DNA of 26,988 bases. Source: a virus. The notes under the pieces are model-generated. The model saw only the letters and a program-made list of their open reading frames with translations, did not search any database and was not told the DNA's origin. Shown here piece by piece: positions 64 to 26,988 of this stretch (positions within the stretch are counted from its first letter, which is position 1; each line of letters opens with the position of its first letter). The position numbers and the translations under genes were made by a program. The stretch spans positions 1 through 26,988 of the IMG/VR virus record IMGVR_UViG_3300018036_001836. One strand, written 5' to 3'.

Positions 64-726
64 ATGCCAAAGCAGAAGGGCAGGAAGAGTAAATTCACAG
101 CACCAGTAAAGGAGCGCATAATCGAAGCACTCCGAGCGGGTACTACTTATGAGATCGCTGCTCAATATGCAGGGATCTCCAGATCTACTCTCTACGAATG
201 GATTAAGAAGGGAGAAGGCTTCGAGACCGGAGTATATCGTACTTTTTACGACAATATAAAAAAGGCAGAAGCAGAAGGAGCGGTAGTACACCTTGGGACC
301 ATCTCCCAAGCATCGAAGAAAGATTGGAAGGCTGCAGCGTGGTTACTTGAGAGAAGGCATGGATACTCCAAAGAAGGAGTAATGCGAGCAGAAGAGCAAA
401 CCAAAGAGATCGAACTCCCATCGAATATGCTCGAACTACTGAAGATGCAAGCCAAAGAACTCCGGGGATCGATGGCCAAAGCAGAATCTTCCGAATCTTG
501 GCAAGCGTACGCAGCACTCCAGAGGCAACTCCTCCAAGTAGTACAACAGATTAGACAGATCGAAGCGGAAGAGGGTATGGGAGATGAACTCGAAGGCTTA
601 ACGGATGAGCAGTTACTAAGCGAGATTACTTCTGCTATTGTATCTCTACCTCCAATCCTTAGACAGAGGCTAGAGGGTACGATACAATCTATGCAAGATG
701 TAATCCCTCTTAAGGTGAAAAAATGA
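64..726 (+). CDS. terS: small terminase subunit (TerS), DNA recognition for packaging
   Basis: A protein of about 220 residues that would bind phage DNA at the packaging site and hand it to the large terminase. The N-terminal 55 residues hold a helix-turn-helix (TYEIAAQYAGISRSTLYEWIKKG). A segment ending AAWLLERRHGY follows, typical of phage small terminases of the HTH type, and the C-terminal half is helical and rich in Glu and Gln, as expected for oligomerisation. The ATG at 64 is preferred over the ATG at 58 because the AAGG at 53-56 is well spaced from 64 but abuts 58. Its position at the left end beside the candidate cos, upstream of the large terminase, supports the call. The stop overlaps the next start (ATGA). 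Confidence 0.85.
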   Translation: MPKQKGRKSKFTAPVKERIIEALRAGTTYEIAAQYAGISRSTLYEWIKKGEGFETGVYRTFYDNIKKAEAEGAVVHLGTISQASKKDWKAAAWLLERRHGYSKEGVMRAEEQTKEIELPSNMLELLKMQAKELRGSMAKAESSESWQAYAALQRQLLQVVQQIRQIEAEEGMGDELEGLTDEQLLSEITSAIVSLPPILRQRLEGTIQSMQDVIPLKVKK

Positions 727-1148
727 CTATATTCCATATCGTTATAATATCTGCGATGAGCGGGGCTCTTCTCACTACTGGAGCGATACTCGCGATAGAG
801 AACCGCTCGAAGCAATGGGAGAAGATCTCTACAGATCAATCGGAAGTAATTAAGGGCCTTGCAGATCTTCAAGGAGAGATGCAGAAGGGGAAGATCGATC
901 TACAGAAGAATCTAACCGCTCCAGATCTTATCGAGGTTCCATGCTCGGAGCAGTTTATCGATAAGAATGGAGAGGGACTCTGTAGAGAGATGTTCTGCAG
1001 ATTGCAAACGAGAGAAGGAGATGGAGCTTCCCAATCGGAATGCGAAGAGATTGCGAACCTTAACAATACAATCTCCATTCTCAGCGAGTGTAAAAATATG
1101 GAAGTAGAGATCGATCAATGCATAAAAGTACTCGATACGAGAAAATAG
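723..1148 (+). CDS. cysteine-rich membrane-anchored protein of unknown function (spanin-like layout)
   Basis: 141 residues. Residues 2-25 form one hydrophobic N-terminal segment (FHIVIISAMSGALLTTGAILAI) with no signal peptidase site apparent, so an anchored protein with most of its length outside the cytoplasm is likely. A charged helical stretch follows (about 27-65), then a C-terminal domain with six cysteines (CSEQF, LCREMFC, ECEEI, ECK, QCIK) that could form disulfides in an oxidising compartment. An N-terminal anchor plus a periplasmic helix resembles an inner-membrane spanin, but spanins normally sit beside the lysis genes and this one lies between the terminase genes. AAGGTG just upstream serves as ribosome site, and the start overlaps the terS stop. 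It is followed in the same frame, after a single TAG, by the HTH gene. Not recognised with confidence. Confidence 0.7.
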   Translation: MTIFHIVIISAMSGALLTTGAILAIENRSKQWEKISTDQSEVIKGLADLQGEMQKGKIDLQKNLTAPDLIEVPCSEQFIDKNGEGLCREMFCRLQTREGDGASQSECEEIANLNNTISILSECKNMEVEIDQCIKVLDTRK

Positions 1149-1202: not shown

Positions 1203-1436
1203 ATGAATTTCGGATACTGGGTACAGATGCAATTACAAAAACACGACAAGTCCTTAACGTGGTTGGCTGGCAGGATAGGCTCGCATCCTTCTCTCTTGTG
1301 CAAGTGGAGGGCAGGCTTATCGAACCCAAAAACAGAGTACTTCTTTCTCGTATGCAAGGAGATCTCCCTTCTACGGAAGGAGCCCATCGAGCAAACGATA
1401 CGAGAGGGAGCGAGCGCAATGGGGATTAAGTTCTAA
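1203..1436 (+). CDS. small XRE-like helix-turn-helix protein
   Basis: 77 residues, nearly all one Cro/C1-type domain: a first helix (YWVQMQLQKHD), then the helix-turn-helix SLTWLAGRIGSHPSLLCKWRAG, then further helices (EYFFLVCKEISLL). It should bind DNA and is probably a regulator, or possibly an accessory packaging factor given its place between the terminase genes. Two starts are possible: 1191 without a ribosome site, and 1203 with GGGG six bases upstream. The HTH is complete in both. The stop overlaps the large terminase start (TAATG), which suggests translational coupling. A cysteine-rich reading in another frame (1118-1429) overlaps it and was rejected. Confidence 0.7.
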   Translation: MNFGYWVQMQLQKHDKSLTWLAGRIGSHPSLLCKWRAGLSNPKTEYFFLVCKEISLLRKEPIEQTIREGASAMGIKF

Positions 1437-2851
1437 TGAGCATCCGGGATACTACAAAGAACCTAAGAAGGCTCCGGAATCGAGCAACGCAGAATCCACT
1501 CGCTTATTTTTGCCCTACCCCTCCGCAGGAGGCTTGGCTTCGAGATAAAAGTAAGATTAAACTACTACTCGGAGGAAACCAAGTAGGGAAAACTTACGCG
1601 CAGACCGCAGAGTTACTCTATAGATGCCTTGGAAACCATCCTTATCTCGAAACCGATCCCCCTCCGATACAGTGTTTTCTAATTACTCACTCTCACCAAC
1701 AAAGCATAACGATCCAAGAGAAGCTCTATGCAATGTGTCCAAAGGATGCTCTCCATCCTTCCTGCGAGTTCGTACCCGGTAGGGGCTTCCGAGGTATCCA
1801 TCCAGTAGTAAAATTCAATAACGGAAGCATGATATACGTTAAGACAGCGAACCAAGGGCTCGGGCTTGCTTCTGCGACCGTTGGCTACGTTGCAATCGAT
1901 GAGCCTGTATCGCAAGAGGTATGGGGAGAACTCGCTGCTCGAGTCCTTCGAGGTGGAGCGGGTGGTACTACTGGTACAATAGGGATAACTATGACCCCGG
2001 TTGGACAGGATGTATCCTACCTTAAGCAATTGGTAGAAGAAGGGAGAGTATCTTGCCATAGGGCTCCCCTCACCGTAGAGAAAACTACTCCAAAGTACTG
2101 TAAACCGATTATCTCGCAATCCCAGATCGATTCGATCTCCCAAACCTATCTCCCCATCGATAGAGCAGCGAGACTCAATGGAGATTGGGTAGTGGGTATC
2201 CCGGAGGGTAGAGTATTCGATCAATTCTCGGAAGATATGATATCGAAGCAATCCGCTCCGATGGGTAACTATTCTTTCTGCGTAGGGGTAGACCATGGAA
2301 GCCAACCCAATGCACAGGTAGCAATCCTCGCAGCGGTAGAGATGAGCGATAGCTCCAAGCCTTGGGTATACGTATTAGATGAGTATGTATCGGGATCCGC
2401 TCCTCCAGAAGCTCACGCTCGAGCAATCTTGGAGATGCTTTCTCGAAATTCTATCGAGGCTGCTTCCTGTAGATGGACTGGGGATAATATCCATTACGGG
2501 GGCTCCGGAGGTGGGAAGATGAGTAACTCTCTCCTTATGAAGGCCTTCGAGAGAGTAATGGGCTACCCTCAAGGGAATCTCCCCTTCCGTATTAGAACGA
2601 TAAAGAAGCCTCGATATAGTGTATACTATGGCAGTGCTATGATACACTCGATTATGGCAAGAAGGCAATTCTTTATCCATCCGAAATGCGAGAGGTTAAT
2701 CCTATCGCTCCAACGGTGGACAATGAAGCGCAACCAATCCGCTCGATCGCGTGATGAGTGGGGCCATTCAGTCGATGCTCTTCGATATTGTATCGTACCC
2801 ACCCTAGAATCTAGTAAAGCAAATATCCCCGGTAAACTTAGGATCTACTAA
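1436..2851 (+). CDS. terL: large terminase subunit (TerL), ATPase and nuclease
   Basis: 471 residues, the packaging motor that pumps DNA into the prohead and cuts concatemers. The ATPase domain shows Walker A GGNQVGKT (46-53), Walker B with catalytic Glu VGYVAIDEP (149-157) and a coupling motif GITMTPVG (183-190). The RNase H-like nuclease domain shows FCVGVDHGS (first Asp at 286), a central acidic strand VYVLDEY (311-317) and the final acidic motif in DEWGHSVDALRY (440-451). The order and length fit the family. It overlaps the upstream HTH gene and the downstream portal gene by TAATG. The packaging mode cannot be read from the protein alone, but the terminal repeat suggests cos. Confidence 0.95.
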   Translation: MSIRDTTKNLRRLRNRATQNPLAYFCPTPPQEAWLRDKSKIKLLLGGNQVGKTYAQTAELLYRCLGNHPYLETDPPPIQCFLITHSHQQSITIQEKLYAMCPKDALHPSCEFVPGRGFRGIHPVVKFNNGSMIYVKTANQGLGLASATVGYVAIDEPVSQEVWGELAARVLRGGAGGTTGTIGITMTPVGQDVSYLKQLVEEGRVSCHRAPLTVEKTTPKYCKPIISQSQIDSISQTYLPIDRAARLNGDWVVGIPEGRVFDQFSEDMISKQSAPMGNYSFCVGVDHGSQPNAQVAILAAVEMSDSSKPWVYVLDEYVSGSAPPEAHARAILEMLSRNSIEAASCRWTGDNIHYGGSGGGKMSNSLLMKAFERVMGYPQGNLPFRIRTIKKPRYSVYYGSAMIHSIMARRQFFIHPKCERLILSLQRWTMKRNQSARSRDEWGHSVDALRYCIVPTLESSKANIPGKLRIY

Positions 2852-4311: not shown

Positions 4312-4625
4312 TGTATTGCGATCAATGTAACCAACCCATCGAGGAGATAAAGGACTCTATCGTAGAATGGATCTCATCCGATGACTGGGCTTTAGCTATG
4401 TATATTCGGTTAGTCCATCCGGGATGCTGTTACTATGAGAAGCGGAGAGAACTACTCGAGGAGATGCAGGCCAATGACCATTGGCTACCGGTAATCGATA
4501 TGGAGAGCCTTATCGAGATCGCTTGGGAGATGCCTTGGGATAACAAGAATCTAGCAGAATCGCAGTTTATTCGATATATTAACGAGAGAAACCACCAAAC
4601 CAGAGGTACAGATGAAAACAATTGA
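4311..4625 (+). CDS. small CxxC protein of unknown function
   Basis: 104 residues, not recognised. The N-terminus has CDQC at residues 3-6 and HPGCC at about 36-40, a Cys/His arrangement that could hold one zinc ion. The rest is acidic and helical with several tryptophans (VEWISSDDWALAM, IEIAWEMPWDN). The ATG overlaps the portal stop (TAATG) and its end overlaps the next gene by 14 bases, so it belongs to the head operon. Its place between portal and scaffold suggests a part in head assembly or a small regulator carried along, and neither is shown by the sequence. Confidence 0.65.
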   Translation: MYCDQCNQPIEEIKDSIVEWISSDDWALAMYIRLVHPGCCYYEKRRELLEEMQANDHWLPVIDMESLIEIAWEMPWDNKNLAESQFIRYINERNHQTRGTDENN

Positions 4626-5247
4626 GCACGAGGGCCAAACCTTCGTATTGAAAACAGAGATCGAGGCTGCTTTTAAGGAAAGAATCTCGAAACTTTCTGC
4701 GAGAGCAATCCAAGCAGAAGAGCAAGCGAAAGCACTCCAAGATAATCTCGATAATCAATCTGGAGAACTCGAAAAGATCTCCAAACTACAAGAGAAAGTA
4801 AGTACCCTCGAAGCATCTCTACAGGATGCAGAGAGTAAGTATTCTCGAGTATCGATGCTAAGCGAGCAAGGTTTTACAGATCCCGAACTTCGAGAGGCTG
4901 TAGAATGGGCTTATCAAAGATCCAAGAGCGAAGCATCTTTGGAAGATTGGATTAAAACAATCAAAGAGAACCCGGAGCAGGCTCCTCTCGTATTGAAACC
5001 CCATCTCCAAGCAAAGAAAGCTCCAGAGGCATCTCCAGAGGCATCTCCGGAAGCAGTACAGATGGAATCCGCTCCGATGGCATCTGCAGAGGTTTCTCCT
5101 TCTCTCTTGCCTCCCAAAACGAATACAGGAGCGAAGCCCGCTCCAATACAGCATGGGGATATCCTTTCTCGAGGTATCAAGGATCCAGAGTTCTACGCAG
5201 CGAACCGAGATGCCATTAAGAAGGCTTGGAAAGCCCGCAAATTCTAA
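4612..5247 (+). CDS. capsid scaffolding protein (likely)
   Basis: 211 residues. The protein is acidic to neutral and highly helical, with a predicted coiled coil over about residues 15-80 rich in Glu, Gln, Lys and Leu. A Pro/Ala/Ser/Glu linker with short repeats (EASPEASPEA) follows, then a basic C-terminal tail (NRDAIKKAWKARKF). This layout, and a place between portal and major capsid genes, match phage scaffolding proteins, whose basic C-terminus contacts the capsid protein during prohead assembly. No protease motif is apparent. GAGGTACAG precedes the ATG. It lies in the same operon as the portal and overlaps the preceding gene by 14 bases. Confidence 0.75.
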   Translation: MKTIEHEGQTFVLKTEIEAAFKERISKLSARAIQAEEQAKALQDNLDNQSGELEKISKLQEKVSTLEASLQDAESKYSRVSMLSEQGFTDPELREAVEWAYQRSKSEASLEDWIKTIKENPEQAPLVLKPHLQAKKAPEASPEASPEAVQMESAPMASAEVSPSLLPPKTNTGAKPAPIQHGDILSRGIKDPEFYAANRDAIKKAWKARKF

Positions 5248-5265: not shown

Positions 5266-5574
5266 ATGGCCCTAGATCTACGAGCCGAAACCTTGGCTAC
5301 TTTCGTGAAAACTTTCACAGCAAACCAGACCGCTACAGAGATTCAACTACCGAAGATCTGTAATACAGTTACCATCGGATGCGAACAGCATGAGATATAT
5401 TGGAGTCATGAGGGGACCGAAGGAGTATCTCTTGGATCCGATAAGGACTGGATAACCAGTGGAGCGAAGCAACAAATCAAAGTAGGGAGAGGTAGGAATC
5501 GAATGGATACTATCTATATCGCTACTAAGAGTTCTTCCTCTGCGCTCGTTACTCTCATATTCGAGGAGACTTAA
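5266..5574 (+). CDS. small beta-rich protein, possible capsid decoration protein
   Basis: 102 residues with alternating hydrophobic positions (TEIQLPKICNTVTIGCEQHEIYW, QQIKVGRGRNRMDTIYIAT, SSALVTLIFEE), which suggests a compact beta sandwich. It has no signal peptide or membrane segment. The gene has a strong ribosome site, AGGAGGTACAA, and lies between the scaffold and two fibre-like genes. A virion surface or decoration role is likely from context. No family was recognised. Confidence 0.6.
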   Translation: MALDLRAETLATFVKTFTANQTATEIQLPKICNTVTIGCEQHEIYWSHEGTEGVSLGSDKDWITSGAKQQIKVGRGRNRMDTIYIATKSSSSALVTLIFEET

Positions 5575-5578
5575 GAAG

Positions 5579-5797
5579 ATGGCCCTATACTTTGCTCCCT
5601 CCTCTGCGAGGCCCCAAGTACACTCCTTTACCTCGAGTACTCAAGTAATGATAAATCACAATCTCGGATACAAGCCGATGGTACAGATTATCCTAAGCGA
5701 TGGTACAATAGCCGCGGGAGAGGTAACCCATAGCACCTTAAACCAAGTAGTTATTACTTTCCAAATTTCACTCTCGGGAGAGATAATCTTGCGATAG
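5579..5797 (+). CDS. stand-alone fibre C-terminal-type domain, 72 residues
   Basis: This small protein matches the C-terminal 60 residues of the 460-residue fibre gene downstream. Both share a strand, then INHNLGYKPMVQ against LNHALGEKLVHC, a turn with SDGT against DSSGNK, LNQVVITF against ANNLKVRS, and a final short strand (GEIILR against AEIVVSI). This HxLG beta domain is common at the ends of phage fibre and adhesin proteins. The free copy could cap or assemble with the fibre, sit on the capsid, or be what is left of a shortened fibre gene. It starts four bases after the preceding stop. Confidence 0.7.
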   Translation: MALYFAPSSARPQVHSFTSSTQVMINHNLGYKPMVQIILSDGTIAAGEVTHSTLNQVVITFQISLSGEIILR

Positions 5798-5805
5798 TAT
5801 AAGAG

Positions 5806-5830
5806 CGAGGCATCGAGCCTCGTAATCTTT
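5806..5830 (+). terminator. weak hairpin before the fibre gene
   Basis: CGAGGC (5806-5811), loop ATCGA, GCCTCG (5817-5822), then a broken run of T (TAATCTTTT). The stem has only six pairs and the T tract is poor, so this is more likely an attenuator or an RNA-stabilising hairpin than a full terminator. Confidence 0.35.
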
Positions 5831-5849
5831 TCTAATGGAGTATACAGAG

Positions 5850-7232
5850 ATGCAATTTTTAGCACCTACCAATATTTTTGAGGGAGCGGTTCAATTGAAC
5901 AGTGCTCCGACCGCAGATTCTCACGCAGTAACTAAAGCATACTTGGAAGCCAATGCCGTAGTAGGCATCGCTACCGATAGCGCAAATTACGCAGAACTTG
6001 TAACAGTAGATGGAGAGAAGCAATTAAAACTTAAGCCTCTTACCATTACAGACGTAGCCGTAGATACCTCCGCTACTTCTCTTTCTGCTTGGGTTACAGC
6101 AAACTATACTAATGGAGATGAGAAGCAAGAAGGAGATATTATCGTTCTTACTGCGGTATCCGGTCGCGCTCAAACCTTTATCCATAACGGAGATACACAA
6201 GGTACTACAGCAGACTTTACAGAGATCGAAGGTGCAGACGTTACAGATGCAGAGATCCGCGCTTCTTTGTCTGCTTCTGCAGGTATCAATTTTAACTCAA
6301 GTACAGGTGAGTTCACTGCAGATTCTGGAGAGATCCGAGGATTCTTTGCTGCAGGTACGGGCCTTGCTTATGATGGTGCTAACGGTACTTTCTCTTTGGA
6401 TACCGATAGCGATGGCATCTCGGAAGGAAGTGTAAATTTATATTTTTCCGAAAGCCGCTCGAGAAATAGCATCTCGGTTACAGGTAATGGAATTTCTTAC
6501 TCTGCTGCTACAGGTGTAATTACTCTTGCAGTCGGTACGGATGATATCACAGAGGAAACCGCGCTATTTTATACAGATGCTCGCTCTCGCGGGGCTCTTT
6601 CTTTGGAAACTGTAGCGGGCCCAGATTCCCAATTGCTTTCTTACAATAGTAGTACCGGGGTTCTTTCTCTTCCTGCTTCTGATGTGCATGGTATCTTCTT
6701 TGCAGGTCAAGGTATGTCATTTTCTAACGGAGAGTTCGCTCTCGATGCTAATACTGATGATATTACTCAATTGGCAGGTGCTACTAATAAGTTTTATGCT
6801 GATAGTTTGGTAGATGCTCATCTCTCCGGTGGTACTGGAATCAATTACAATTCTGGAGAGATCGCTCTCGATGCTAATACTGATGATATCACAGAGGAAG
6901 CCGGAGCGGTAAATAAGTTCTTTACCGATACAAGAGCCCGTAATGCTATCTCTGCAGACCCTGCAACTGGAAACCTTGCTCAATATGATAGTGCTACCGG
7001 TGAGATCTTGGTATCTCGTTCGGATTTCCGCTCTACTTTCGCTCCTCAGAACTTGGCTGCTAATACTTGGGTAACCTTGAACCATGCACTCGGAGAGAAA
7101 TTGGTTCACTGCTCTGCTTATGATAGTAGCGGTAACAAGGTACAAGTGGAAGTACAGTTAACAGATGCCAATAATCTTAAGGTTCGCTCTGTAATCGCTG
7201 TTACAGCTGCCGAGATCGTTGTTAGTATCTAA
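5850..7232 (+). CDS. repeat-containing fibre protein, probably on the capsid
   Basis: 460 residues. The N-terminus reads MQFLAPTNIFEG...DSHAVTKAYLEA, resembling the DAxTKxYVD start of many phage fibres. The shaft holds at least four copies of a motif around (T/S)DDIT(E/Q)...(N)KFFTD.RARNAIS (about residues 186, 230, 301 and 344), typical of trimeric fibre shafts. One 28-base stretch is repeated exactly (6736-6763 and 6862-6889, 126 bases apart). The last 60 residues form the HxLG beta domain shared with the 72-residue gene upstream. The start at 5850 has GGAG nine bases upstream, and an in-frame ATG at 5835 lacks one. Its place before the major capsid gene rather than after the tail genes suggests a head fibre. 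Codon use leans to T-ending codons, as in the capsid gene, pointing to high expression. Confidence 0.75.
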   Translation: MQFLAPTNIFEGAVQLNSAPTADSHAVTKAYLEANAVVGIATDSANYAELVTVDGEKQLKLKPLTITDVAVDTSATSLSAWVTANYTNGDEKQEGDIIVLTAVSGRAQTFIHNGDTQGTTADFTEIEGADVTDAEIRASLSASAGINFNSSTGEFTADSGEIRGFFAAGTGLAYDGANGTFSLDTDSDGISEGSVNLYFSESRSRNSISVTGNGISYSAATGVITLAVGTDDITEETALFYTDARSRGALSLETVAGPDSQLLSYNSSTGVLSLPASDVHGIFFAGQGMSFSNGEFALDANTDDITQLAGATNKFYADSLVDAHLSGGTGINYNSGEIALDANTDDITEEAGAVNKFFTDTRARNAISADPATGNLAQYDSATGEILVSRSDFRSTFAPQNLAANTWVTLNHALGEKLVHCSAYDSSGNKVQVEVQLTDANNLKVRSVIAVTAAEIVVSI

Positions 7233-7290: not shown

Positions 7291-7319
7291 CCTCTCTGCT
7301 TCTGCAGAGGGGTTTTTTT
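7291..7319 (+). terminator. strong rho-independent terminator after the fibre gene
   Basis: CCTCTCTGC (7291-7299), loop TTCT, GCAGAGGGG (7304-7312), followed by seven T. The stem has nine pairs, one of them G-T. It ends the terS-to-fibre transcript, so the major capsid gene needs its own promoter. Confidence 0.9.
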
Positions 7320-7323
7320 ATGC

Positions 7324-7352
7324 TTGCAAGAGCCGATACTATGATATAAAAT
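7324..7352 (+). promoter_or_regulatory. sigma70-like promoter for the major capsid gene
   Basis: TTGCAA (7324-7329), a 17-base spacer and TAAAAT (7347-7352) within the AT-rich run GATATAAAAT. It lies just after a strong terminator and about 80 bases before the capsid gene, where a dedicated promoter would be needed. A small hairpin, GAGCG/CGCTC (7355-7372), lies in the expected leader RNA. Confidence 0.6.
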
Positions 7353-7397
7353 AAGAGCGGGTAGGGTCGCTCCCGAAACAGCAGAAGAGCCCAGATA

Positions 7398-7433
7398 ATG
7401 AATTTTTTCCCTTTTCTTCTAATGGTGCAATAA
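7398..7433 (+). CDS. possible 11-residue leader peptide coupled to the capsid gene
   Basis: ATG at 7398 opens a reading frame MNFFPFLLMVQ whose TAA (7431-7433) overlaps the capsid ATG as TAATG, the same coupling used between many genes in this genome. The capsid start has no clear Shine-Dalgarno of its own, so ribosomes ending this peptide could restart on it. The ribosome site for the peptide is itself weak (AGAAGAG, 13 bases upstream). It may be chance. Confidence 0.3.
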   Translation: MNFFPFLLMVQ

Positions 7434-8368
7434 TGGCAAATGAAATTACAAATAATGGGTTAGTCGGAGATCTTCGATTGGCTCAAATGATTAGCGCAGA
7501 GATCCGCTTGCTTCTTAAGGACTCTGTAAACCTTCGTAATACTCCTTTCGTGGACTTCGTAGGCTCTATTAACGGTATGGGCTCCGATACTATCCGAGTT
7601 CGTAAGGCTTTCCTCGATGGTGAAGATGGATTCTCCGAGTTCACCGGTGCAACCGAAGATGGTGCAGTAGGTAATAAGGCTCTCGTAGATGGACACGTAG
7701 ATGTAGTATGCAAGAGAAATTCTTTAGCGTACGCTATCAGCGATCTCGCTTCGATGACTGGAATGGGCAGCGATATCGATCCTTTCCGCATCGCAGAGCA
7801 TATCTCTAAATCTTATGATGCTTTGTTCGCTAAATTGACTGCAGCGGTATTTGGTGGTTTTACTGCTCAAGTCGGTAGTGCTTCAGCATTAACTGTAGAT
7901 GTATGGGTAGATGCTATCCAAGCCTTGGAAGCAGCCGCTTCTAATAAAGGTGCTCCGGGCCCTTACGTGTGTGTATTGCATCCTGCACAGTTCGCAGAAT
8001 TGCAAGACTCAATCCGTAACGAGGCTAATACTGCGGTATCTTATTCTCCTGCTTCTTTCGAGGCTATCTCTGCTAAGGGCTCTCACTATAAAGGCTCTTA
8101 TATGGGTGTAGAGATCTATACTAGTTCTTACGTAACTGATAATGGATCAAACTACGCTGCTGCTATGTTTGCTGCCGGTGCTATCGGTTATGCTACTGGT
8201 ATGCCTGCTTCTCTTCCGGGTGCTGTTGAGGCTATGGAGATGGGAGAAGTTATGGTAGAGATGGATCGCGATGCTACCAAGGCTCTTACTAAGGTTGTAG
8301 GACATGCTTATCTGGGTATCGCTATCATCGATGACGATCGCGGGGTAGAGATCGCTACTTTGGTATAA
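7433..8368 (+). CDS. major capsid protein (HK97-like fold likely)
   Basis: 311 residues, in the expected place after portal and scaffold. The N-terminal arm is helical (LVGDLRLAQMISAEIRLLL). An extended strand region follows (SDTIRVRKAFLDGEDGFSEF), then helices of the peripheral domain (DPFRIAEHISKSYDALFAKL), and late segments with a VCVLHPAQFAEL helix, the strand MGVEIYTSS and the C-terminal GHAYLGIAIIDDDRGVEIATL. This order fits HK97-fold capsid proteins that use a separate scaffold and have no delta domain. No head maturation protease is seen nearby. The gene is boxed between two terminators with its own promoter. Arginine codons are mostly CGC/CGT (7 of 10), unlike the CGA/AGA of neighbouring genes, a sign of selection for high expression. 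Confidence 0.85.
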   Translation: MANEITNNGLVGDLRLAQMISAEIRLLLKDSVNLRNTPFVDFVGSINGMGSDTIRVRKAFLDGEDGFSEFTGATEDGAVGNKALVDGHVDVVCKRNSLAYAISDLASMTGMGSDIDPFRIAEHISKSYDALFAKLTAAVFGGFTAQVGSASALTVDVWVDAIQALEAAASNKGAPGPYVCVLHPAQFAELQDSIRNEANTAVSYSPASFEAISAKGSHYKGSYMGVEIYTSSYVTDNGSNYAAAMFAAGAIGYATGMPASLPGAVEAMEMGEVMVEMDRDATKALTKVVGHAYLGIAIIDDDRGVEIATLV

Positions 8369-8383
8369 TATATTCTCCTGTTT

Positions 8384-8413
8384 GGATGGGGAGGGCTTCC
8401 TTCCCATCCTTTT
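8384..8413 (+). terminator. rho-independent terminator after the major capsid gene
   Basis: GGATGGGGAGG (8384-8394), loop GCTT, CCTTCCCATCC (8399-8409), then TTTT. The stem has eleven pairs with one G-T. With the terminator before the gene it makes the capsid gene a single-gene transcript, although read-through into the tail genes is likely because the T tract is short. Confidence 0.85.
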
Positions 8414-11403: not shown

Positions 11404-11873
11404 GTACAAAAATTACTACAGGTAGAGCCGGAGTAACGATCGATACAGATCTCCAAGAATTCTATACAGGCTTCTTGGATAAGGTCGCTCCCAATGCTCG
11501 AAAGATTCTCGAAGATACGATGCAAACCATCGAGAAAGATGCTCGCAGAGATTGGCCCGTACGGAAGCCCCAGATCCGAAGAGATAGCGAGGGCAATGTA
11601 GTATTTTTTAAGAAAACCTCTAAGGGCTCTTGGAAACTATTCGAGCGGGGCTTTCGGATTCTAGGTGATGGAAGCTTCGAGGCTTATCTCAGTAATCGCG
11701 CTCCCTACTCATGGGCTATAAAGTTCGGAGTAGATTCCGAGAATAACCGGGGCCAAGATATTATCCAACCTCAAGGAAAGCGGGTTGCTAATGAACTCAT
11801 GGTAAAACCACAGAAGAAAGCCTCGAATAAAGTAGTAAAGGCTCTCGCTGATGACTTGATGCGGAGATTATAA
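11400..11873 (+). CDS. minor tail / tail completion-like protein, 157 residues
   Basis: The N-terminal helix (DTDLQEFYTGFLDKVAPNARKILEDTMQTIEKDARRDWPV) followed by a beta segment (NVVFFKKT, GSWKLFERGFRI, SFEAYLSNRAPYSWAIKFG) resembles HK97 gp10-like head-tail joining or tail completion proteins, where a long helix leads into a site of the form AxxxxPVxxG...I..NxxPYAxxxE.G. The match is partial. Position between the assembly chaperone and tape measure is less usual for that family. The start overlaps the frameshift product's stop, and the gene's own stop overlaps the tape measure start. Confidence 0.5.
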   Translation: MSTKITTGRAGVTIDTDLQEFYTGFLDKVAPNARKILEDTMQTIEKDARRDWPVRKPQIRRDSEGNVVFFKKTSKGSWKLFERGFRILGDGSFEAYLSNRAPYSWAIKFGVDSENNRGQDIIQPQGKRVANELMVKPQKKASNKVVKALADDLMRRL

Positions 11874-13900
11874 TGGCAGAAGAAAAAAGATCGATATCGA
11901 TCTCGTATAAGGCAGATCTTAAGGATCTAATCTCGAAACTTAAGCAGATGCCTAACGTAACGGAAGCGGAAGCTAAGAAGATGGTATCCGCTCTGGATAG
12001 GCAACTTAAGCAAGCCGAGAAGGCAGCCAAGAAGAGCGCAGAAGCATCCAAGAAAGCAGCGAAGCAGGCTAGCCAAGCAGCGAGAAGGGGAGCGCAAGAT
12101 TTCGATGCGATGGGAGATGCTGCGAGAAGAGCAGAAGAGAGGCTCGAGCGAGTAGCAGAATCCTCTGGAGATATCGATAGAGGTTTCTCTTCCGTAGGGC
12201 TTGCTCTCCGGGGTGTTAATCCTCAACTCGCAGAGGCTGCAGATGGGCTCGCGGATACTTTCGCAGTAGTGGAAGGTCTTACTATGTCCTTCTCTGCTCT
12301 CAATCCCTTAGTAATCGCGGGGGCTGCAGCGGTAGGGGCTCTTACTCTTGGGTATATGTCACACTTAGCAGAGCTCGAGAGAGTACGAGAAGAGACTCTC
12401 GCTCTCCGAGATGCGCAGAGGGCTCTCTCCGATTCTCAATTGGAGCAAGAGAATAACCTAATCGATGCTGCATCGAAACTTCGAGATCAAAGATTGGAGT
12501 ATCAACTTCTTACGGGCCAGATCACAGAGTACGAGTTTAATCTCCAGAAAGCAGGAGAGGCTGCTAACGAATCTTTCCGGGGTAATATCGAATCGATCTC
12601 CAGTACCATCTCCGAGAATGAATTGCTATTGGCTACTATTCGATCTCTCAAGGATTCTTATATTGATTCGAGTAACGCTGCTGTAGTGCTCTCGGATGGA
12701 GAGAAGGAGAGATTACGGACTCTTCAACTCCAAACCAACGCAGTCAAGAACAATGTAGATCTAACAAAGAATGGACTCCGAGAAGCAGCCGAGCTCGGGA
12801 AACTTGAGAAAGCCCTACTCTCGCAGATAGCAAACCAGAACCAACAAAGAGAAGCGATCGAGGCAATGCAAGCGGAAGCAGTAGATCGCGCTCAAGAGAT
12901 GGTAATGCTCGAGAAAGAGCTCGCAGATGCTACAGAAGATGCCGCTACTCAATCCGAGCGCAGACAAGTAGCAACAGAGAAAACAGTATCCGCAGAAGAG
13001 GAACTCGCTCGGGCTATCGAGGAGGCGCTCGCTCTTTCTGATGATGTTATTAAGGGCAAGAAGTTACAGGAGCAGATGGATAGAGCGGTCGCAGAGGCTT
13101 TCCTCGATGATGAGGGTAAGAAGCGATTAGCACAGCAAGCAAGGCTCGAGGAGGAGATCGCTGCTCTGGAGATGCTCGGTATCGCTACTGGGAGAGAAGC
13201 AGAGGCCTCGATGGCAATCGAGGCTCTAAGGCATGAGAAGAAGATAGAGAACCTACAAGAAGAAGAAGATAAGGTAATAGGCATCTCTAAGCAGCAATTT
13301 GAGAACGCTCAAGCAATGTTAGGTTCTTTCGGAGATCTTACCAATAGCCTCCAAGAGTTAAACGAGCTCAAGATGGCATCTAATGAGATCGATGTAGAAG
13401 CATCTCAGAAGAAAGCAGAGAGCCTAGAGAAACTATCCAAGGAAGAGCGCAAGCAGATGGAGAGAAGAGCCCATATGTCAATTGCTCTTTTTAATATGTC
13501 GAAGGCAGCGAGCATCGCAGAGGTAGCGATGAATACTGCGGAAGCAATTACCAAGGCTCTAACCTATGGCCCTGTACTGGGTCCTATTATGGCAGGTATC
13601 GCAACCGCAGCCGGAGCCGCGCAAGCGGGAGTAGTCGCAGCGCAACCCGCTCCGCAGATGCAATTCCATATGGGGGGTATGGCCGCGGATGAGATGCAAG
13701 CAAGAGTATTGCGGGGAGAGGCTATACTGGATAGGGCTACTGTAAGAAGGATTGGAGGAGATCAAGGGGTACGGAATCTCCAACAGGGGGGAGAGGCTCG
13801 CTCGAATACCGTAGTAATCCAACCGTACAAGCACTTTGGAAGGTTCGCTAAGGATCTTGGAATCTCTCAACCTAGAAGAATAGGCATTAAAGGATATTGA
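11873..13900 (+). CDS. tape measure protein
   Basis: 675 residues, which would set a tail of roughly 100 nm by the usual ratio of about 0.15 nm per residue. The protein is nearly all helical: an Ala/Lys-rich coiled coil (residues 40-75), a hydrophobic segment (about 142-162, ALNPLVIAGAAAVGALTLGYM in pieces), long Glu/Ala-rich coiled coils (165-520), and a second hydrophobic Gly/Ala region near 565-600 (GPVLGPIMAGIATAAGAAQAG). The C-terminus has the common end pattern FHMGGMAADEMQARVLRGEAIL followed by RIGG, seen in many tape measures. It follows the assembly chaperone and precedes the tail tip genes. Confidence 0.9.
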   Translation: MAEEKRSISISYKADLKDLISKLKQMPNVTEAEAKKMVSALDRQLKQAEKAAKKSAEASKKAAKQASQAARRGAQDFDAMGDAARRAEERLERVAESSGDIDRGFSSVGLALRGVNPQLAEAADGLADTFAVVEGLTMSFSALNPLVIAGAAAVGALTLGYMSHLAELERVREETLALRDAQRALSDSQLEQENNLIDAASKLRDQRLEYQLLTGQITEYEFNLQKAGEAANESFRGNIESISSTISENELLLATIRSLKDSYIDSSNAAVVLSDGEKERLRTLQLQTNAVKNNVDLTKNGLREAAELGKLEKALLSQIANQNQQREAIEAMQAEAVDRAQEMVMLEKELADATEDAATQSERRQVATEKTVSAEEELARAIEEALALSDDVIKGKKLQEQMDRAVAEAFLDDEGKKRLAQQARLEEEIAALEMLGIATGREAEASMAIEALRHEKKIENLQEEEDKVIGISKQQFENAQAMLGSFGDLTNSLQELNELKMASNEIDVEASQKKAESLEKLSKEERKQMERRAHMSIALFNMSKAASIAEVAMNTAEAITKALTYGPVLGPIMAGIATAAGAAQAGVVAAQPAPQMQFHMGGMAADEMQARVLRGEAILDRATVRRIGGDQGVRNLQQGGEARSNTVVIQPYKHFGRFAKDLGISQPRRIGIKGY

Positions 13901-13901
13901 T

Positions 13902-16900
13902 ATGGCAAATATTACTCCCGATTACTTGAGGGGCTTTCTTATCCCTTCCATCTCCATCTCGAAGGATAATCTCTGGGATGCTCAATCATCATATACCCAA
14001 GGCAATGCGAGAGCAGGGATTCCAGAAGCGCAGAGCGCAGGAGTTAATCTTACTCTCTCTTCGATTGGCTCTCAAGGTGAAGAGATCAAAGTAGAAACCA
14101 TCCAGGGGGGATTACCCGGAGAGGCTCTTTTTAAGTGGAGCGGAGAGGATTCCGTAGAACTTGGAAGAGATGCAGCCCATATCCTAACAGAAGCAGGATT
14201 CTGGAAGTACTCTGCGAGCCCATCCTCTGCTCGGTATCTCCATTCCGATTGCGTATCGAGCCTCGATGGTACTATGTGGGTAGTATCGGAGCGAGATAAC
14301 CTTACGAATATCAATACCATAGAGGTAAGTAGACAAGAGAAGAGCGGAGCTATTACGAGCCTTAATACTTTCATATCTCTTCCGGGTACTTTCTCGAGCG
14401 ATGGGCTTCCATGTATTACTCGATTACAGGATGGGAGCCTCTTGGTAGCCTATTTCCAGTATACCGTACAGGATGAGATCAATATTAAGGTGCATCGAAG
14501 CATCGATAATGGGGATACTTGGCAGGAGATCGCTCCAAGAGGGCTCGCAGAGAGCATCGATAGCACTACCTACGAGCCTAAGAAAATGAAGATGGTATCA
14601 ATCGATAATACTGTATCTCTGTTTATTGAACTTGAGACCTCGAACCGCAATCGATTAGCGCAGTACGTATCGAGAGATGGGGGTACTACTTTCTTACTTG
14701 TAAATCGAATCTCTAGCAGTACAGAGAGTTATTTTCACGAGCCTAGCCCGGTATCGCTTCCAGATGGTACAATAGGATTAGCCTATATCTCGGATAGCAC
14801 AGAGTTAAACTTTACTAAGATTCCCAATCCCGGTATACGTTTATCGAGTAGCGAATGGACTGCAGCGAACGAGAGAACCATCTCTCTCGGTACTACTTTC
14901 TCGAGTATTACTTCTAACGTAATGAGCGGGGGAGAGGTCGCAGCGTGGTTCCAAGATGGTATAATCTGGGTAGTCGCTCAAGAGTACGGAAGGGGAAGGC
15001 TAATTGCTTTCTATTCTGATAATATGGGAACCTCTTGGAGATATGCCTCCGGTGGTACTTCTACGGTATCGAATGGATATATCCTAGACTACGAGAGCAA
15101 TGCTAACCGAGTAACCGGGCTCTCTGCGTGTACTCATGAGGGGAGAACAAAGATTCTAGCCCACAATACAAATAGCATATGGTATCTCGCTCTCGGAGGA
15201 TACTCCTCCTTCTCTTTCCCTCCCAGAGTGGATAGCCCTTCGAGATATGAGTATCTTGTATGGGAGAGCACCTATATTCCTGTAATGCTTCCCGCGGTCT
15301 CCAGTCAGTATACAACCATTGGAGCAGGTACCCAAGCCCTCGATGGGGAAGGGCTTAAGATCGAGACCTCTGGGAATGCTCGATACTATCGCTATGCTCA
15401 TAGTGGAGGCTATTTCGATGAGGGCCAAGTAGTTCGCATAAGGCTCCAAGTAGATCAAAATACGAGCGGAGTAACCGCAGATTATATCTATCTTGAGATT
15501 GAGCAAGACGATACCGTAAATTCTCTATCTCTTAAACTTCGATTCTCTCCGAGTACTATACAGGTACGAGATAAGAATGGAACGCTTGCTACCATCTCTC
15601 ACGATATGACAGAAAGCACAGAGATAGTAATCGCGATTACGGATACAGATGCAAAGATATGGTATCGAACCGCAGATGGAGCGCAGGCTAAGAAGTGGAA
15701 TCTCGAATCCATTACAGGTATTGCGAAGGGTGGGACCGGAGCGGGGAATAATATCGAATGGGGGCATAAAAGCTTCTCGGGAGTCCTAACTTATCGCTCG
15801 CATTGGCAAGAAGTAAGTATCTCCTCTGGAGAGCAAGCGGGCCAATTTAGATTCGATCTCCGGGGTGCTACATATCCTCCGCTTGGAGAGTATCAATATA
15901 TCGATGGTGGGCTCGCGATTACCTCTAAGGATGCACCTGCTCGAGGAGAGGATGAGTATAAGATTAGCCCTCGATTCGATTATGGCATTGAGAATATCTT
16001 CCATGGCATCTCTCTTTCTCCTCGCGTGGTCTGGAGATCGAAAGCGGATACCGCTCTGCAGAGAATCCCTCTCTTTATCGATCCCGTAGTAGCCTCTACA
16101 GATAAGAGCATGGGACTATCGGATATGCTCGGAGTCCATCTTTCCAATATAAATTTTAGAGAGTTTATACTCGAATCTTGGAGCGGATCTTCATGGGTTA
16201 CTCTCGCTTCTGTAGATACGAGCGAGGGCTTCCAAGGCAAGTATCTTAAGAAGGGTAATACCCTTATCTCAAACGATAGTACAAAGCAGTTTTTACTCCA
16301 ATATGGGGAGGCCATCGGATGGAGAGCCGAACTTTCTAACGGAGATGATACTACTGTAATTGTTAAAATCAGAATGAATAGCGAGGGAATCTGGAGCACA
16401 GATAGCACAGTAAAGCAGGCTATCCTCCAATACGATACAGACCTTACAGATCCGAGCACTATCCCCGCGAGCGGTAATATAAAACTTATCCCGGATAGCA
16501 TTACCTTCCTTAAAAATAGGCTCGATGGAGTAAACCTTGGGCAGTATGCTCTCTCGATAAATATCCCAATCCAAGCAACTCTCGAAGGGTACTTCCAGAT
16601 TGGATCGTTACTAATGGGATCGGTAGCTTTCCCCGCTCCGCAGTACCAACGCGGTAGAACGATTACCTATACACCCAATATCCAATCCCAATCGAGCCTC
16701 GATGGTATGTTCTTTTCTCGAAAGATGAGCGCAGGCCGTAGAACTGCTTCTATCGCTTGGACAGAGCCTATCGATACTACTCGATTATATGATCTCAATC
16801 CGGATTATTGGCAAGTATCCAGTACTGCAGGAGCGCAACCGGTAGCGAACTATGGAGATCCTTATCTAATGAATGGAATCTTTCGATACTTGAGCAATCG

Positions 16901-17087
16901 AGAGCCCTTGGTATACCTCCCCTCGATTCCAAAGAATCCTACCAATAACCAAGTACTCTTGAACCATCGAGAAGAGCATATGCTCGCTCGAACTACTGGA
17001 GAGGTATCCGTAGAGAGTGTAATTGGAGAAGAGCGGGTGGATGAAATGTTTAGAGTAGCTACTGTAAACCTCGAGGAGATCGAGTAA
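13902..17087 (+). CDS. large tail-tip protein with sialidase-type (BNR/Asp-box) domain
   Basis: 1061 residues. Residues about 100-430 hold three Asp boxes of the S-x-D-x-G-x-T-W type: SIDNGDTW (200-207), SRDGGTTF (257-264) and SDNMGTSW (372-379). Beta-propeller strands lie between them (GTMWVVSERD, GSLLVAYFQYT, GTIGLAYIS, GIIWVVAQEYG), as in sialidases and other six-bladed propellers. Residues about 450-640 look like a beta-sandwich sugar-binding region. The C-terminal 400 residues are beta-rich and may be the part that joins the tail. The catalytic Arg triad of true sialidases could not be placed with certainty, so binding rather than cleavage of host glycans is possible. It follows the tape measure and overlaps the hub gene start (TAATG), so it is probably the distal tail or receptor-recognition protein. 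Confidence 0.7.
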   Translation: MANITPDYLRGFLIPSISISKDNLWDAQSSYTQGNARAGIPEAQSAGVNLTLSSIGSQGEEIKVETIQGGLPGEALFKWSGEDSVELGRDAAHILTEAGFWKYSASPSSARYLHSDCVSSLDGTMWVVSERDNLTNINTIEVSRQEKSGAITSLNTFISLPGTFSSDGLPCITRLQDGSLLVAYFQYTVQDEINIKVHRSIDNGDTWQEIAPRGLAESIDSTTYEPKKMKMVSIDNTVSLFIELETSNRNRLAQYVSRDGGTTFLLVNRISSSTESYFHEPSPVSLPDGTIGLAYISDSTELNFTKIPNPGIRLSSSEWTAANERTISLGTTFSSITSNVMSGGEVAAWFQDGIIWVVAQEYGRGRLIAFYSDNMGTSWRYASGGTSTVSNGYILDYESNANRVTGLSACTHEGRTKILAHNTNSIWYLALGGYSSFSFPPRVDSPSRYEYLVWESTYIPVMLPAVSSQYTTIGAGTQALDGEGLKIETSGNARYYRYAHSGGYFDEGQVVRIRLQVDQNTSGVTADYIYLEIEQDDTVNSLSLKLRFSPSTIQVRDKNGTLATISHDMTESTEIVIAITDTDAKIWYRTADGAQAKKWNLESITGIAKGGTGAGNNIEWGHKSFSGVLTYRSHWQEVSISSGEQAGQFRFDLRGATYPPLGEYQYIDGGLAITSKDAPARGEDEYKISPRFDYGIENIFHGISLSPRVVWRSKADTALQRIPLFIDPVVASTDKSMGLSDMLGVHLSNINFREFILESWSGSSWVTLASVDTSEGFQGKYLKKGNTLISNDSTKQFLLQYGEAIGWRAELSNGDDTTVIVKIRMNSEGIWSTDSTVKQAILQYDTDLTDPSTIPASGNIKLIPDSITFLKNRLDGVNLGQYALSINIPIQATLEGYFQIGSLLMGSVAFPAPQYQRGRTITYTPNIQSQSSLDGMFFSRKMSAGRRTASIAWTEPIDTTRLYDLNPDYWQVSSTAGAQPVANYGDPYLMNGIFRYLSNREPLVYLPSIPKNPTNNQVLLNHREEHMLARTTGEVSVESVIGEERVDEMFRVATVNLEEIE

Positions 17088-18784
17088 TGGATACCATTAA
17101 GAGAAGCGATATCGAGAGTGGAGAGGTATGCTTTCTGCTCGATATCTATTATTTCGGAGCGATATACCGTTTTTCTACAGTACCCATAGAGATCGAGGAT
17201 ATTGCAGAGAATACCTCGATCCCTTACCGGGGTGCTCTTTCCGATCCTCCTGTAAATTTACAGAGCGATCTCCTCGGAGTAGACCTCGAAGCCAATACCA
17301 TCTCGCTCGAACTTGTATTCGAGGAGATAGATTGGGTATCCGAGTTTCTCAAGGGTAGAACCATTAATGATGCTCTATGCGATCTCTCAATGGTGATTAT
17401 AAAGGATGGAAAAACCTCCTTTACTCAGCAAGATAGGATCGGTATCTTTTCTGGAAGGGCTCTCGATGCCATCTTTGGTAACCCAGATGCACCCAAGGGA
17501 GCAGTAGCCTTCTCTATCGAGAACTCGATCAATATTCGAGATAGAAAACTCCTCGGAGAAGAGCATATAATAATCGATGATAACTACCCAATCGGGATTA
17601 TAGAGAAGAGTAGGGGGAAGGTGGTTCCTTTCGTATTCGGTAGTCCTTTTAGTGCTCCAATCGAGAGTAGTGGGAGCATCACCCTCGAGGAAGATCTTCG
17701 AGTTACTCCATGCTACCAAGCAGGAGGTACTCCTACCCTAAAAACTCAATACTTCCAAGTAGCATATCATTCGGTAGTAATTGAGCAGGTCTCGAATATA
17801 AAGATCTACGATGGCCAAGGGGGATCCTTTACCAACCCCGTAGAGATTGCAGTGGATTCGAGGGGCTTTCTCCATGCATATGTACCCTATTATCTTAATG
17901 TAGGAGCTCCAGAGGGGATAAATATACAGGAGGATAACTTCCAAGCCTCGAGCCCAGAGATAGCCTTCCAGTATTATGCTCAATGGAGCGGAAGCGATGG
18001 GGGGATTCCATCGATTAACGGAGATGGCCCATTAGAGAGCGCAGTAGATATCTCGCTCTATGCTCTGGAGAGATCGGAGTTATTATTCGATTATTCCTCA
18101 TGGCAAGGGCTCGCTCCAGTACTCAATCGATACAAGTTCGGAGGCTATGTAAACGATCTCGATCTTACTGCTTACGAATGGGTAAAGCAAAATATATGGG
18201 ATCTCCTTCCAATAATGGTAACTACCGGGGGAAGGGGTATTAAGGCATCTCTTAATCTGTATACCTACTCTCAAGAGATTATCCCCTCTCACTATCTAAT
18301 AGAGAGCGGAGAAATCGAGATTATCTCTCCCCTTACCCCTCTCGAGGGGGATATTATCAATCGGATTGTATTGCGCTTCGCTTATGCAGGCAATGCAGGA
18401 GCCTTTCGCTCTCAAGTAGTAATCGATCCCCGGTTAACAGAAGATGAGCCTCTAAAATTTCGAGATCCTCTTGCTTACATATCCTATACTCGGTATGGAT
18501 TGCGAGAGAAGGTAATCGAGGCTCCTTTCGTATACGATCTCCAGACTGCTATCCGCATTGCTCGAGATAAGATTCGAGCCCATGCTCTGGGTAACTACGC
18601 TATCGAGATCTCTGCTTCCCCTCGGTATGGGTATCTCGATCTTGGAGATATCGTAGCAATCACTTCCGAGAGAGTCGGATTAACCGAGCATAAATGCCAG
18701 ATTGTATCTAAATCTTGGAATAACAACCGGTGGAGATACGTGCTGCATATCGAGGATAACCCTCTCGTAACGATCCGCTCTTAA
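17087..18784 (+). CDS. tail hub / baseplate protein
   Basis: 565 residues, mostly beta. The C-terminal part has the hub-like pattern YDLQTAIRIARDKIRAHA, then IEISASPRYGYLDLGDIVAITSERVGL, then KCQIVSKSWNNNRWRYVLHIED. This segment occurs in tail-tip hub proteins (gp27/gpJ-like) where the helix and the LGDIV turn shape the ring. The N-terminal half (LLDIYYFGAIYRFSTVPIEIED, VNLQSDLLGVDLEANTISLELVF) looks like the first hub domains. It directly follows the sialidase-like protein and precedes the lysis genes, so it should close the tail tip. About 40 bases without a gene separate it from the endolysin. Confidence 0.7.
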   Translation: MDTIKRSDIESGEVCFLLDIYYFGAIYRFSTVPIEIEDIAENTSIPYRGALSDPPVNLQSDLLGVDLEANTISLELVFEEIDWVSEFLKGRTINDALCDLSMVIIKDGKTSFTQQDRIGIFSGRALDAIFGNPDAPKGAVAFSIENSINIRDRKLLGEEHIIIDDNYPIGIIEKSRGKVVPFVFGSPFSAPIESSGSITLEEDLRVTPCYQAGGTPTLKTQYFQVAYHSVVIEQVSNIKIYDGQGGSFTNPVEIAVDSRGFLHAYVPYYLNVGAPEGINIQEDNFQASSPEIAFQYYAQWSGSDGGIPSINGDGPLESAVDISLYALERSELLFDYSSWQGLAPVLNRYKFGGYVNDLDLTAYEWVKQNIWDLLPIMVTTGGRGIKASLNLYTYSQEIIPSHYLIESGEIEIISPLTPLEGDIINRIVLRFAYAGNAGAFRSQVVIDPRLTEDEPLKFRDPLAYISYTRYGLREKVIEAPFVYDLQTAIRIARDKIRAHALGNYAIEISASPRYGYLDLGDIVAITSERVGLTEHKCQIVSKSWNNNRWRYVLHIEDNPLVTIRS

Positions 18785-18825: not shown

Positions 18826-19404
18826 ATGATAGTATTTATAGATAGACAGCATGCAGGTAAACCAGACAAGCCCGAAGATCGAGGGGCTACTGTAATGCCC
18901 TCTCCTGCTTTCGGTAACGGTATGGAGGCAATCTATACCGGGTATCTATCTCTGATGATAGAAGAGAGGCTCCTCGAGAATGGAGCGAAAGTAATTCCGA
19001 TTGCAGATGGAAAGTACTCGGATAGGCATAAGCGAGTAAACGAATACTCGAAGAGATTCCAAGGGGAGAAGCAAGTTTATCTCGCGCTCCATCTCAATTG
19101 CGGAGGTGGGGATTACGCTTCTTTCTTCCATATGGGGAGCGAAGCAGGTGCTAATCTTTCTGCTAAAATTTGCGATGAGATGCGAGATGCTTCTCTTCCG
19201 GGGTTGGTACGTTGCTTACCTAAGAGAGCATCTGCAGAGGATTGGACTAAGAACGCGTGGTACACGATACGAGGAATCCAAGCACCGATAGCGATATGCT
19301 GCGAGCCTCTTTTCATGGATACCCATCTAGATCTACTTACCCTTGAGCACTTAAAAACGATTGCAGATGCCATCGCTACAGGTGTAACGAGATGGAGCCT
19401 GTAA
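18826..19404 (+). CDS. endolysin, N-acetylmuramoyl-L-alanine amidase (Amidase_3 type)
   Basis: 192 residues. It would cut the bond between N-acetylmuramic acid and L-alanine of peptidoglycan to release progeny. The zinc site is visible: His9 in IDRQHAG (the usual motif is DPGHGG), Glu34 in NGMEA, and His89 in LALHLNCGG, the expected SxHxN-like strand. The catalytic Glu is 160 in CCEPLFMD. There is no cell-wall-binding domain and no signal peptide, so export would depend on a holin. AAGGTAAG precedes the ATG. It is followed by the holin-like gene with a TAATG overlap, forming a lysis cassette. Confidence 0.88.
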   Translation: MIVFIDRQHAGKPDKPEDRGATVMPSPAFGNGMEAIYTGYLSLMIEERLLENGAKVIPIADGKYSDRHKRVNEYSKRFQGEKQVYLALHLNCGGGDYASFFHMGSEAGANLSAKICDEMRDASLPGLVRCLPKRASAEDWTKNAWYTIRGIQAPIAICCEPLFMDTHLDLLTLEHLKTIADAIATGVTRWSL

Positions 19405-26933: not shown

Positions 26934-26988
26934 GAGGGCTCCTTCTAGGGCATGTGTACGGTAGGTACCCCCCCCGCACTGCTCTCAC
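26934..26988. other. right end with cos-like features
   Basis: An imperfect inverted repeat around AGGAGGGCTCCT spans the end of the last gene (26930-26948). It is followed by GTACGGTAGGTACC and a run of eight C (26968-26975), then GCA and the 10-base terminal repeat CTGCTCTCAC (26979-26988). Small terminase binding and cutting sites would be expected here and in bases 1-57. Confidence 0.45.

Follow-up and report, generated by a model that had tools for sequence, protein, structure and literature searches.

Three genes, apparently for a small beta protein, a free fibre-end domain and a fibre, lie directly upstream of the major capsid protein (MCP) gene of this virus, which raises the question of whether the fibre decorates the capsid or belongs to the tail. 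The window analysed here is the whole virus record of 26,988 bases. Its structural genes run in the order terminase, portal, putative scaffold, the three-gene block, MCP, head-completion and tail genes, and tape measure (Table 1); the names head-completion, hub and amidase were assigned partly by position. All three open reading frames were found between scaffold and MCP, where the initial annotation had placed them. The large terminase (TerL) had no tblastn match at 1e-5 among 50,697 phage records, indicating a lineage without a close cultured member there, and MCP had one partial match only, covering 32% of the query. The gene upstream of the block matches Pfam Phage_scaffold at E 0.071, below the cut-off, and is called a putative scaffold from its position, its coiled coil and its equivalent in DSL-LC06, which carries a scaffold annotation. 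Ten identical bases at 1-10 and 26979-26988, found nowhere else in the record, can be read either as a cos-like end or as the assembly overlap of a complete genome.

Table 1 Features of the window discussed in the text
Feature	Position	Strand	Description	Basis or remark
Large terminase (TerL)	1436-2851			
Putative scaffold	4612-5247	+	211 aa	Position after portal, coiled coil; weak Pfam Phage_scaffold match
b102	5266-5574	+	102 aa, putative adaptor/base	Predicted jelly-roll model; relatives in third and sister clades
e72	5579-5797	+	72 aa, free fibre-tip-like domain	Alignment to FIB C-terminal domain
Short hairpin with T-rich tail	5805-5823	+	Between e72 and the fibre gene	
FIB	5850-7232	+	460 aa, repeat-built fibre	Start re-assigned from 5835
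FIB tip domain	7020-7229	+	Residues 391-460	pLDDT 92-95
Terminator closing the block	7291-7319	+	Stem 7291-7312 plus T7	
MCP promoter	7324-7352	+	TTGCAA-17-TAAAAT	
Structured RNA	7359-7392	+	5' end of MCP transcript	Directly after MCP promoter
MCP	7433-8368	+		Pfam Phage_capsid_4 E 7.6e-6, just under cut-off; PHROG major head protein
Terminator after MCP	8384-8409	+		Terminator-like in 55/73 distinct intervals
Tape measure	11873-13900			
BNR protein (BNR1061)	13902-17087		1061 aa, BNR repeats; separate tail adhesin candidate	Pfam
Hub-like protein	17087-18784			
Amidase-like protein	18826-19404			

The predicted model of b102 agrees with its earlier description as a small beta protein, being all-beta with 8 strands (pLDDT 94.9, pTM 0.86). 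Its predicted fold is a double-stranded beta-helix, or jelly-roll (best Z 9.1 in structure comparison), and it matches the PM2 spike protein 2vve with Z 8.5 and rmsd 2.8 over 82 aligned residues. A function for b102 was not drawn from its fold matches (a carboxylase domain, cupins, endospore appendages and the PM2 spike), since the jelly-roll is common. Neither the RcGTA base protein nor lambda gpD, which has a beta-tulip fold, appeared in the 50 fold matches listed, an absence that excludes neither. By sequence, the b102 profile had no match to PDB chains up to E 10, and a search of the phage records with b102 gave none at E 1. Of the 39 sources scanned with a b102-family HMM, 20 hold a single copy each. 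Outside this set, L019 (1778-2083), L022 and L087 (the last two being the same contig) have, besides b102, a second paralogue of it between g219 and g255.

For FIB, position 5850 is a more likely start than 5835, judging from the 48-row alignment beginning there, in which its Met column is invariant, and from a GGAG 8 nt upstream. With the start so corrected, the product is repeat-built as first proposed: its best self-alignment score is 185, against a maximum of 73 across 60 shuffles. Across 51 sequences, conservation covers the tip and most of the first 200 residues, and the variable part is the repeat shaft (about 210-390). The full-length model was too uncertain to interpret (pTM 0.28, confident only in the last 70 residues) and gave no Foldseek match at E 0.001 or better. 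The predicted tip best matches the C-terminal domain of the P. aeruginosa pseudaminidase 2w38 (Z 8.1, rmsd 2.5, 70 aligned). Beyond this pseudaminidase domain (Z 8.1 and 8.0), no row exceeds Z 5.8; the tips of tail fibres and tailspikes stand in these lower rows (AP22 gp53, Z 5.8; R2 pyocin, Z 5.4). These comparisons hint that the modelled tip has the fold of trimeric phage fibres, although a Z of about 8 may reflect a common arrangement. The fold also occurs in enzymes and hence lacks specificity for tail fibres.

The second product, e72, had been described as a free fibre-end domain. It resembles the FIB C-terminal domain in hhalign (E 7.8e-4 over 49 columns, with a probability of only 25%) and shares phrog_21918 with it (matched by 51/51 e72 and 26/48 FIB family members), in line with that description. 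Three of the 51 e72 members also match phrog_2647 'head decoration' (best E 3.4e-4). A relationship between e72 and b102 was rejected (profile E 0.08). The FIB of the window itself matches 0 Pfam families and 0 PHROGs up to E 1, and no curated head-fibre family; its relatives match structural, minor tail and tail fibre families, and one matches phrog_122 head decoration (E 0.0091). Cyanophage structural proteins with YFTDARAR-type repeats (phrog_697) match 31 of 48 FIB members in the shaft (best E 2.5e-23). Among the 20 of 39 cyanophage records listed, tblastn matches cover only about residues 166-391 of the 465-aa FIB query, leaving the N-terminus and the tip without a match.

Searches with 23 proteins of the window against 115 loci showed that the order scaffold-b102-e72-FIB-MCP recurs. 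All loci with both matches yielded 97 distinct scaffold-MCP intervals, distinct by sequence identity, so that near-copies remain. All three block genes occur in 75 of them (2154-2444 bases from scaffold match to MCP match) and none in 17 (106-760 bases); four have the jelly-roll without FIB (1998-2874 bases). In L239, which has a divergent form of the block, the interval count found FIB only, yet a b102 homologue is present there (HMM E 1e-25), as is a 73-aa gene that by reading resembles e72. The scaffold gene directly precedes MCP in the sister clade L189-L202, in DSL-LC06 (OR003941) and in the MAG contig L188. Profile comparison supports jelly-roll homology from the main to the third clade (hhalign P 98.9, E 3.4e-17), from the third to the sister clade (P 97.5, E 8e-12) and from the main to the sister clade (P 90.4, E 1.4e-6).

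A portal tree was built from 37 of 39 rows, without two that were too short, one of them the window's own locus. On one side of a branch (support 94/91) stand all 23 rows that have a jelly-roll in this slot, and all 18 rows with b102, e72 and FIB group together (100/100); long branches among some of the outgroups make the deep order unsure. Since the block-bearing rows all lie on one side of that branch, a single insertion between the scaffold gene and the MCP promoter is the simplest reading of the sequences. On the same reading, L239 and the main clade would have retained FIB, and the third clade (L218, L225, L242, L245) would have exchanged it for a 254-270 aa protein or for proteins of 137 and 416 aa (read in L218, L225 and L242). 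Pairs of loci at an MCP distance of 0.35-0.38 can show a FIB N-terminal distance of 0.10-0.24; judged by these distances, FIB is swapped between lineages independently of MCP. The whole looks like a movable module, in which a constant jelly-roll adaptor is combined with an exchangeable fibre.

Several other features of these loci were seen. One small gene, whose product has a hydrophobic stretch at its N-terminus and a shared Cys-containing motif, lies beside the terminase genes in the window (723-1148) and, by reading, inside the scaffold-MCP interval in L218 (3914-4321) and L239 (7407-7787). In L040 (1-3000), the minus strand carries the portal and terminase matches, against the orientation of the rest, reflecting either a rearrangement or an assembly error. 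Binning of the MAG contig L187 weakly suggests an alphaproteobacterial host.

The sister clade offers a different location. Its records L204, L205 and L206 carry a lone jelly-roll copy in the tail-tip cluster, whereas in the main clade the block genes lie outside that cluster. In L205 (12064-13269) and on the minus strand in L204 (7385-8620), the jelly-roll gene is followed by one for a 294-303 aa partner protein, and in L205 the amidase gene comes directly after the partner. Homology of this partner to the third-clade adhesins was unsupported (E 0.067).

One possible explanation is that the module makes a tail fibre whose genes moved to the head operon, with b102 docking FIB at the tail tip in the way that its sister-clade homologue would. 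The jelly-roll homologue of L205 lies, with the other protein, between hub and amidase, where the window has no gene between the hub end at 18784 and the amidase start at 18826. The predicted likeness of the FIB tip to AP22 gp53 and R2 pyocin also fits a tail fibre, and so does its exchange independently of MCP, host-recognition tail genes often being exchanged independently between lineages. On the other hand, the FIB tip is conserved and the shaft variable, which is not typical of a receptor-binding tip, and a BNR-domain tail protein is present anyway. We put this explanation at clearly less than an even chance. It is very improbable that FIB is a secreted or cell-bound product rather than a virion part, given its fibre architecture, its head-operon position and its conservation within the structural gene cluster.

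The layout between FIB and MCP indicates how the two are separated. A hairpin with a T-run between them is present in 46 of 49 distinct intervals, compared with 3 of 360 coding control pieces, in support of the strong terminator with which the block had been said to end. Elsewhere, terminator-like hairpins were found in 9/47 cases after the major tail protein (MTP) gene, in 1/66 between g219 and g255, and in none at six other junctions (n 30-65). The hairpin between e72 and FIB is terminator-like in just 5 of 50 relatives and is thus not a conserved feature. Between the terminator and MCP, the pattern TTGNNN-(15-19)-TANNNT occurs in 62 of 67 distinct upstream regions, against 222 of 1340 mononucleotide shuffles; the 12 examples written out have a spacer of 17 and, 6 nt further on, an RNA element. 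Nine sister loci have both the promoter pattern (with an 18-nt spacer) and the RNA element, and all nine lack the terminator upstream of MCP. Thus, presence of the terminator follows that of the block, and the promoter and leader belong with MCP.

This RNA element is predicted to fold into a 4-bp outer stem, an inner hairpin with the loop TCGCN and an A-rich linker, and a search pattern for the fold fits 104 of 106 leaders (42 distinct). In 19 gapless rows, which were picked from the 42 by the fold itself and are thereby biased towards it, 98.2% of pair cells are standard (85.6% in shuffles) and changes on both sides occur in 6 of 9 pairs (2.2 in shuffles), with the outer stem and the hairpin covarying. 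The sequences further suggest a 2-bp pseudoknot between loop and linker, by reading GC with GC in most, GT with AC in L029, L030 and L032, and AC with GT in L045. In the 19-row count, two cells are unpaired at one of these two pairs and a single cell at the second, since L030 and L032 have the partner displaced by one base. The exact pattern was found in 52 viral contigs, with an MCP match in 41 of 45 newly fetched loci, and the leader is also present in clades that lack the fibre block and whose MCP is only 28-45% identical. Searches gave no gathering-level Rfam match in seven sources, and a model search over 39 sources turned up no additional copy within any of them at E below 0.01. Among the titles searched, which omitted most subscription papers, none named a capsid leader RNA or a capsid-fibre block at this slot.

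To ask whether FIB could be a high-copy virion part, we scored codon use in 40 loci as synonymous bits per codon towards MCP versus the portal, terminase, tape measure and BNR genes. Among 14 gene classes, FIB is nearest to MCP: it averages +0.114 (n=28; above zero in 23/28), compared with -0.030 for MTP (above zero in 10/34) and -0.21 to -0.30 for the remaining twelve classes. The capsid-like codon style ascribed to the block from the start therefore holds for the fibre (+0.114, n=28), but not for the two small genes, b102 (-0.245, n=35) and e72 (-0.299, n=36); the scaffold scores -0.254. Within loci, FIB exceeds MTP in 22/23, the BNR protein in 18/18, the scaffold in 27/27, b102 in 27/27 and e72 in 27/28. 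Since FIB alone in the block has capsid-like codons, and these lie above MTP in 22 of 23 loci, a head-borne, many-copy FIB is favoured.

Calibration on four phages gave a mixed picture, so that this proxy supports many copies of FIB without proving them. The scaffold ranks first in T7 and the tail fibre gp17 sixth of seven; in T4 the scaffold, sheath, tube and vertex proteins come first, and the fibre gp12 and the whisker wac are low, near the bottom. Such low scores of tail fibres count for a head position of FIB and against a tail fibre. In lambda, D and V come first, with small differences. Other results count against the head: T4 hoc is low too, the phi29 appendage gp12 scores above the head fibre gp8.5, the third-clade adhesins are not MCP-like (-0.28, -0.13 and -0.07), and the scaffold, expected in many copies, scores as low here as do b102 and e72. 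For the sister-clade partner protein, two records gave +0.05 and -0.29; a close relative supplied the MCP used for the second score. A separate 79-83 aa sister-clade protein, encoded between the g219 and g255 homologues (L205 1532-1771; L204; L047) at the place of the second b102 paralogue, has capsid-like codon use (+0.18 and +0.05 in the two scored) and is a candidate small decoration protein.

The same measure bears on whether the fibres sit at the neck, like whiskers, or line the tail tube. A gene in the head operon would suit such a position, and the cyanophage proteins matched by the FIB repeats are annotated only as structural or tail-fibre-like. However, whiskers are few per virion, at odds with the codon bias of FIB, and T4 wac itself scores near the bottom, which makes this reading improbable.

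Co-divergence was also considered as a locator, using partial correlations corrected for portal and TerL. The FIB N-terminal part shows no significant coupling to MCP (0.14; 38 of 300 permutations as high), and b102 and e72 co-diverge with MCP (0.60 and 0.61; 0 of 300 as high). However, b102 also follows BNR1061 (0.72) and g142 (0.66), and e72 follows BNR1061 (0.52). Because both track BNR1061 besides MCP, co-divergence cannot separate head from tail, and it was rejected for this purpose; the idea that it links b102 and e72 to the capsid was likewise dropped, as b102 follows the tail BNR protein as strongly.

Taken together, the capsid slot and the codon bias of FIB favour the capsid, while the sister-clade location and the absence of significant coupling to MCP favour the tail. 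The fibre-bearing capsid of the initial annotation is plausible from the slot, which is that of lambda D, and from FIB codon use, and the jelly-roll folds of the PM2 spike and of the RcGTA head-fibre base also count in its favour; it is weakened by the tail-tip homologue in the sister clade, by the lack of a co-divergence that would locate FIB, and by a predicted tip fold that is also that of tail fibres and tailspikes. We put FIB on the capsid in many copies at about an even chance.

Known systems show parallels in plan. The initial annotation regarded head fibres as known from a few phages only, but they are less rare: capsid fibres have been described in phi29, crAss001 and 7-7-1 (PMC7602432, PMC10172136, PMC12796354), and the RcGTA head spike is reported to have a jelly-roll base, Rcc01079, carrying a head fibre, Rcc01080, that binds capsule (PMC7296036). 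As in RcGTA, a jelly-roll protein is paired here with a fibre gene, a likeness in fold only, and in a common fold that does not prove function. Unlike FIB so far as its sequence goes, the RcGTA fibre is reported to bind as one subunit through an Ile/Leu-Gly repeat threading the base pentamer; FIB begins MQFLAPTN, and such a repeat was not found at its N-terminus. The head fibre gene of phi29 (gp8.5) lies near the capsid gene, as FIB does, and gp8.5 and crAss001 gp21/gp29 are described as oligomeric fibres on the capsid. The phi29 fibre is reported as a helical supercoil on a beta-tulip base, whereas the FIB shaft is a mixed, beta-rich series of repeats and its predicted tip is of the tail-fibre type. 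The parallel with RcGTA is one of plan; the sequence comparisons gave no evidence of membership in RcGTA, phi29, crAss001 or 7-7-1 systems.

In lambda, the decoration gene D occupies the same slot between scaffold and MCP (nu3-D-E), but gpD is a single small protein (333 bases), compared with three genes including a long fibre here. A further parallel is found in Dinoroseobacter phage R5C, where gp039-gp040, an e72-like domain gene (hhalign P 96.6, E 6.5e-10 against e72) followed by a fibre gene, lie downstream of the portal. That the e72-like gene of R5C adjoins a gene annotated 'tail fiber protein' just after the portal speaks for a tail fibre. Unlike the block, the R5C pair is not next to MCP; its fibre tip similarity is weak (E 0.087), and b102 found no match at E 1 among the phage records.

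We then propose a model built on the head reading, in which FIB sits on the capsid. A single insertion would have placed the module between the scaffold gene and the capsid gene promoter, and the terminator, brought along or gained there, would separate transcription of the module from that of the capsid unit. In this arrangement b102 may act as the constant jelly-roll adaptor, and FIB as a fibre, probably trimeric, with a conserved N-terminal part, a shaft of variable repeats but nearly constant length, and a conserved tip; e72 would be a small accessory protein related to that tip. Many copies of FIB on the capsid could make weak, repeated contacts with the cell surface, and these contacts may precede engagement of the tail through the BNR protein and the hub. 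It is tempting to speculate that the locus is a capsid socket system, in which a constant jelly-roll anchors swappable adhesins and the module moves between tail-tip and capsid slots, a proposal that we hold to be somewhat short of an even chance.

Head fibres are already known, mostly as fixed single cases. If FIB is capsid-borne, it would be a head adhesin exchangeable across a whole lineage and recognisable by its adaptor, and comparison with the sister clade would let one ask how an adhesin changes its place on the virion. The terminator-promoter-leader layout also illustrates how a module of this kind can enter next to a strongly expressed phage gene and leave it undisturbed.
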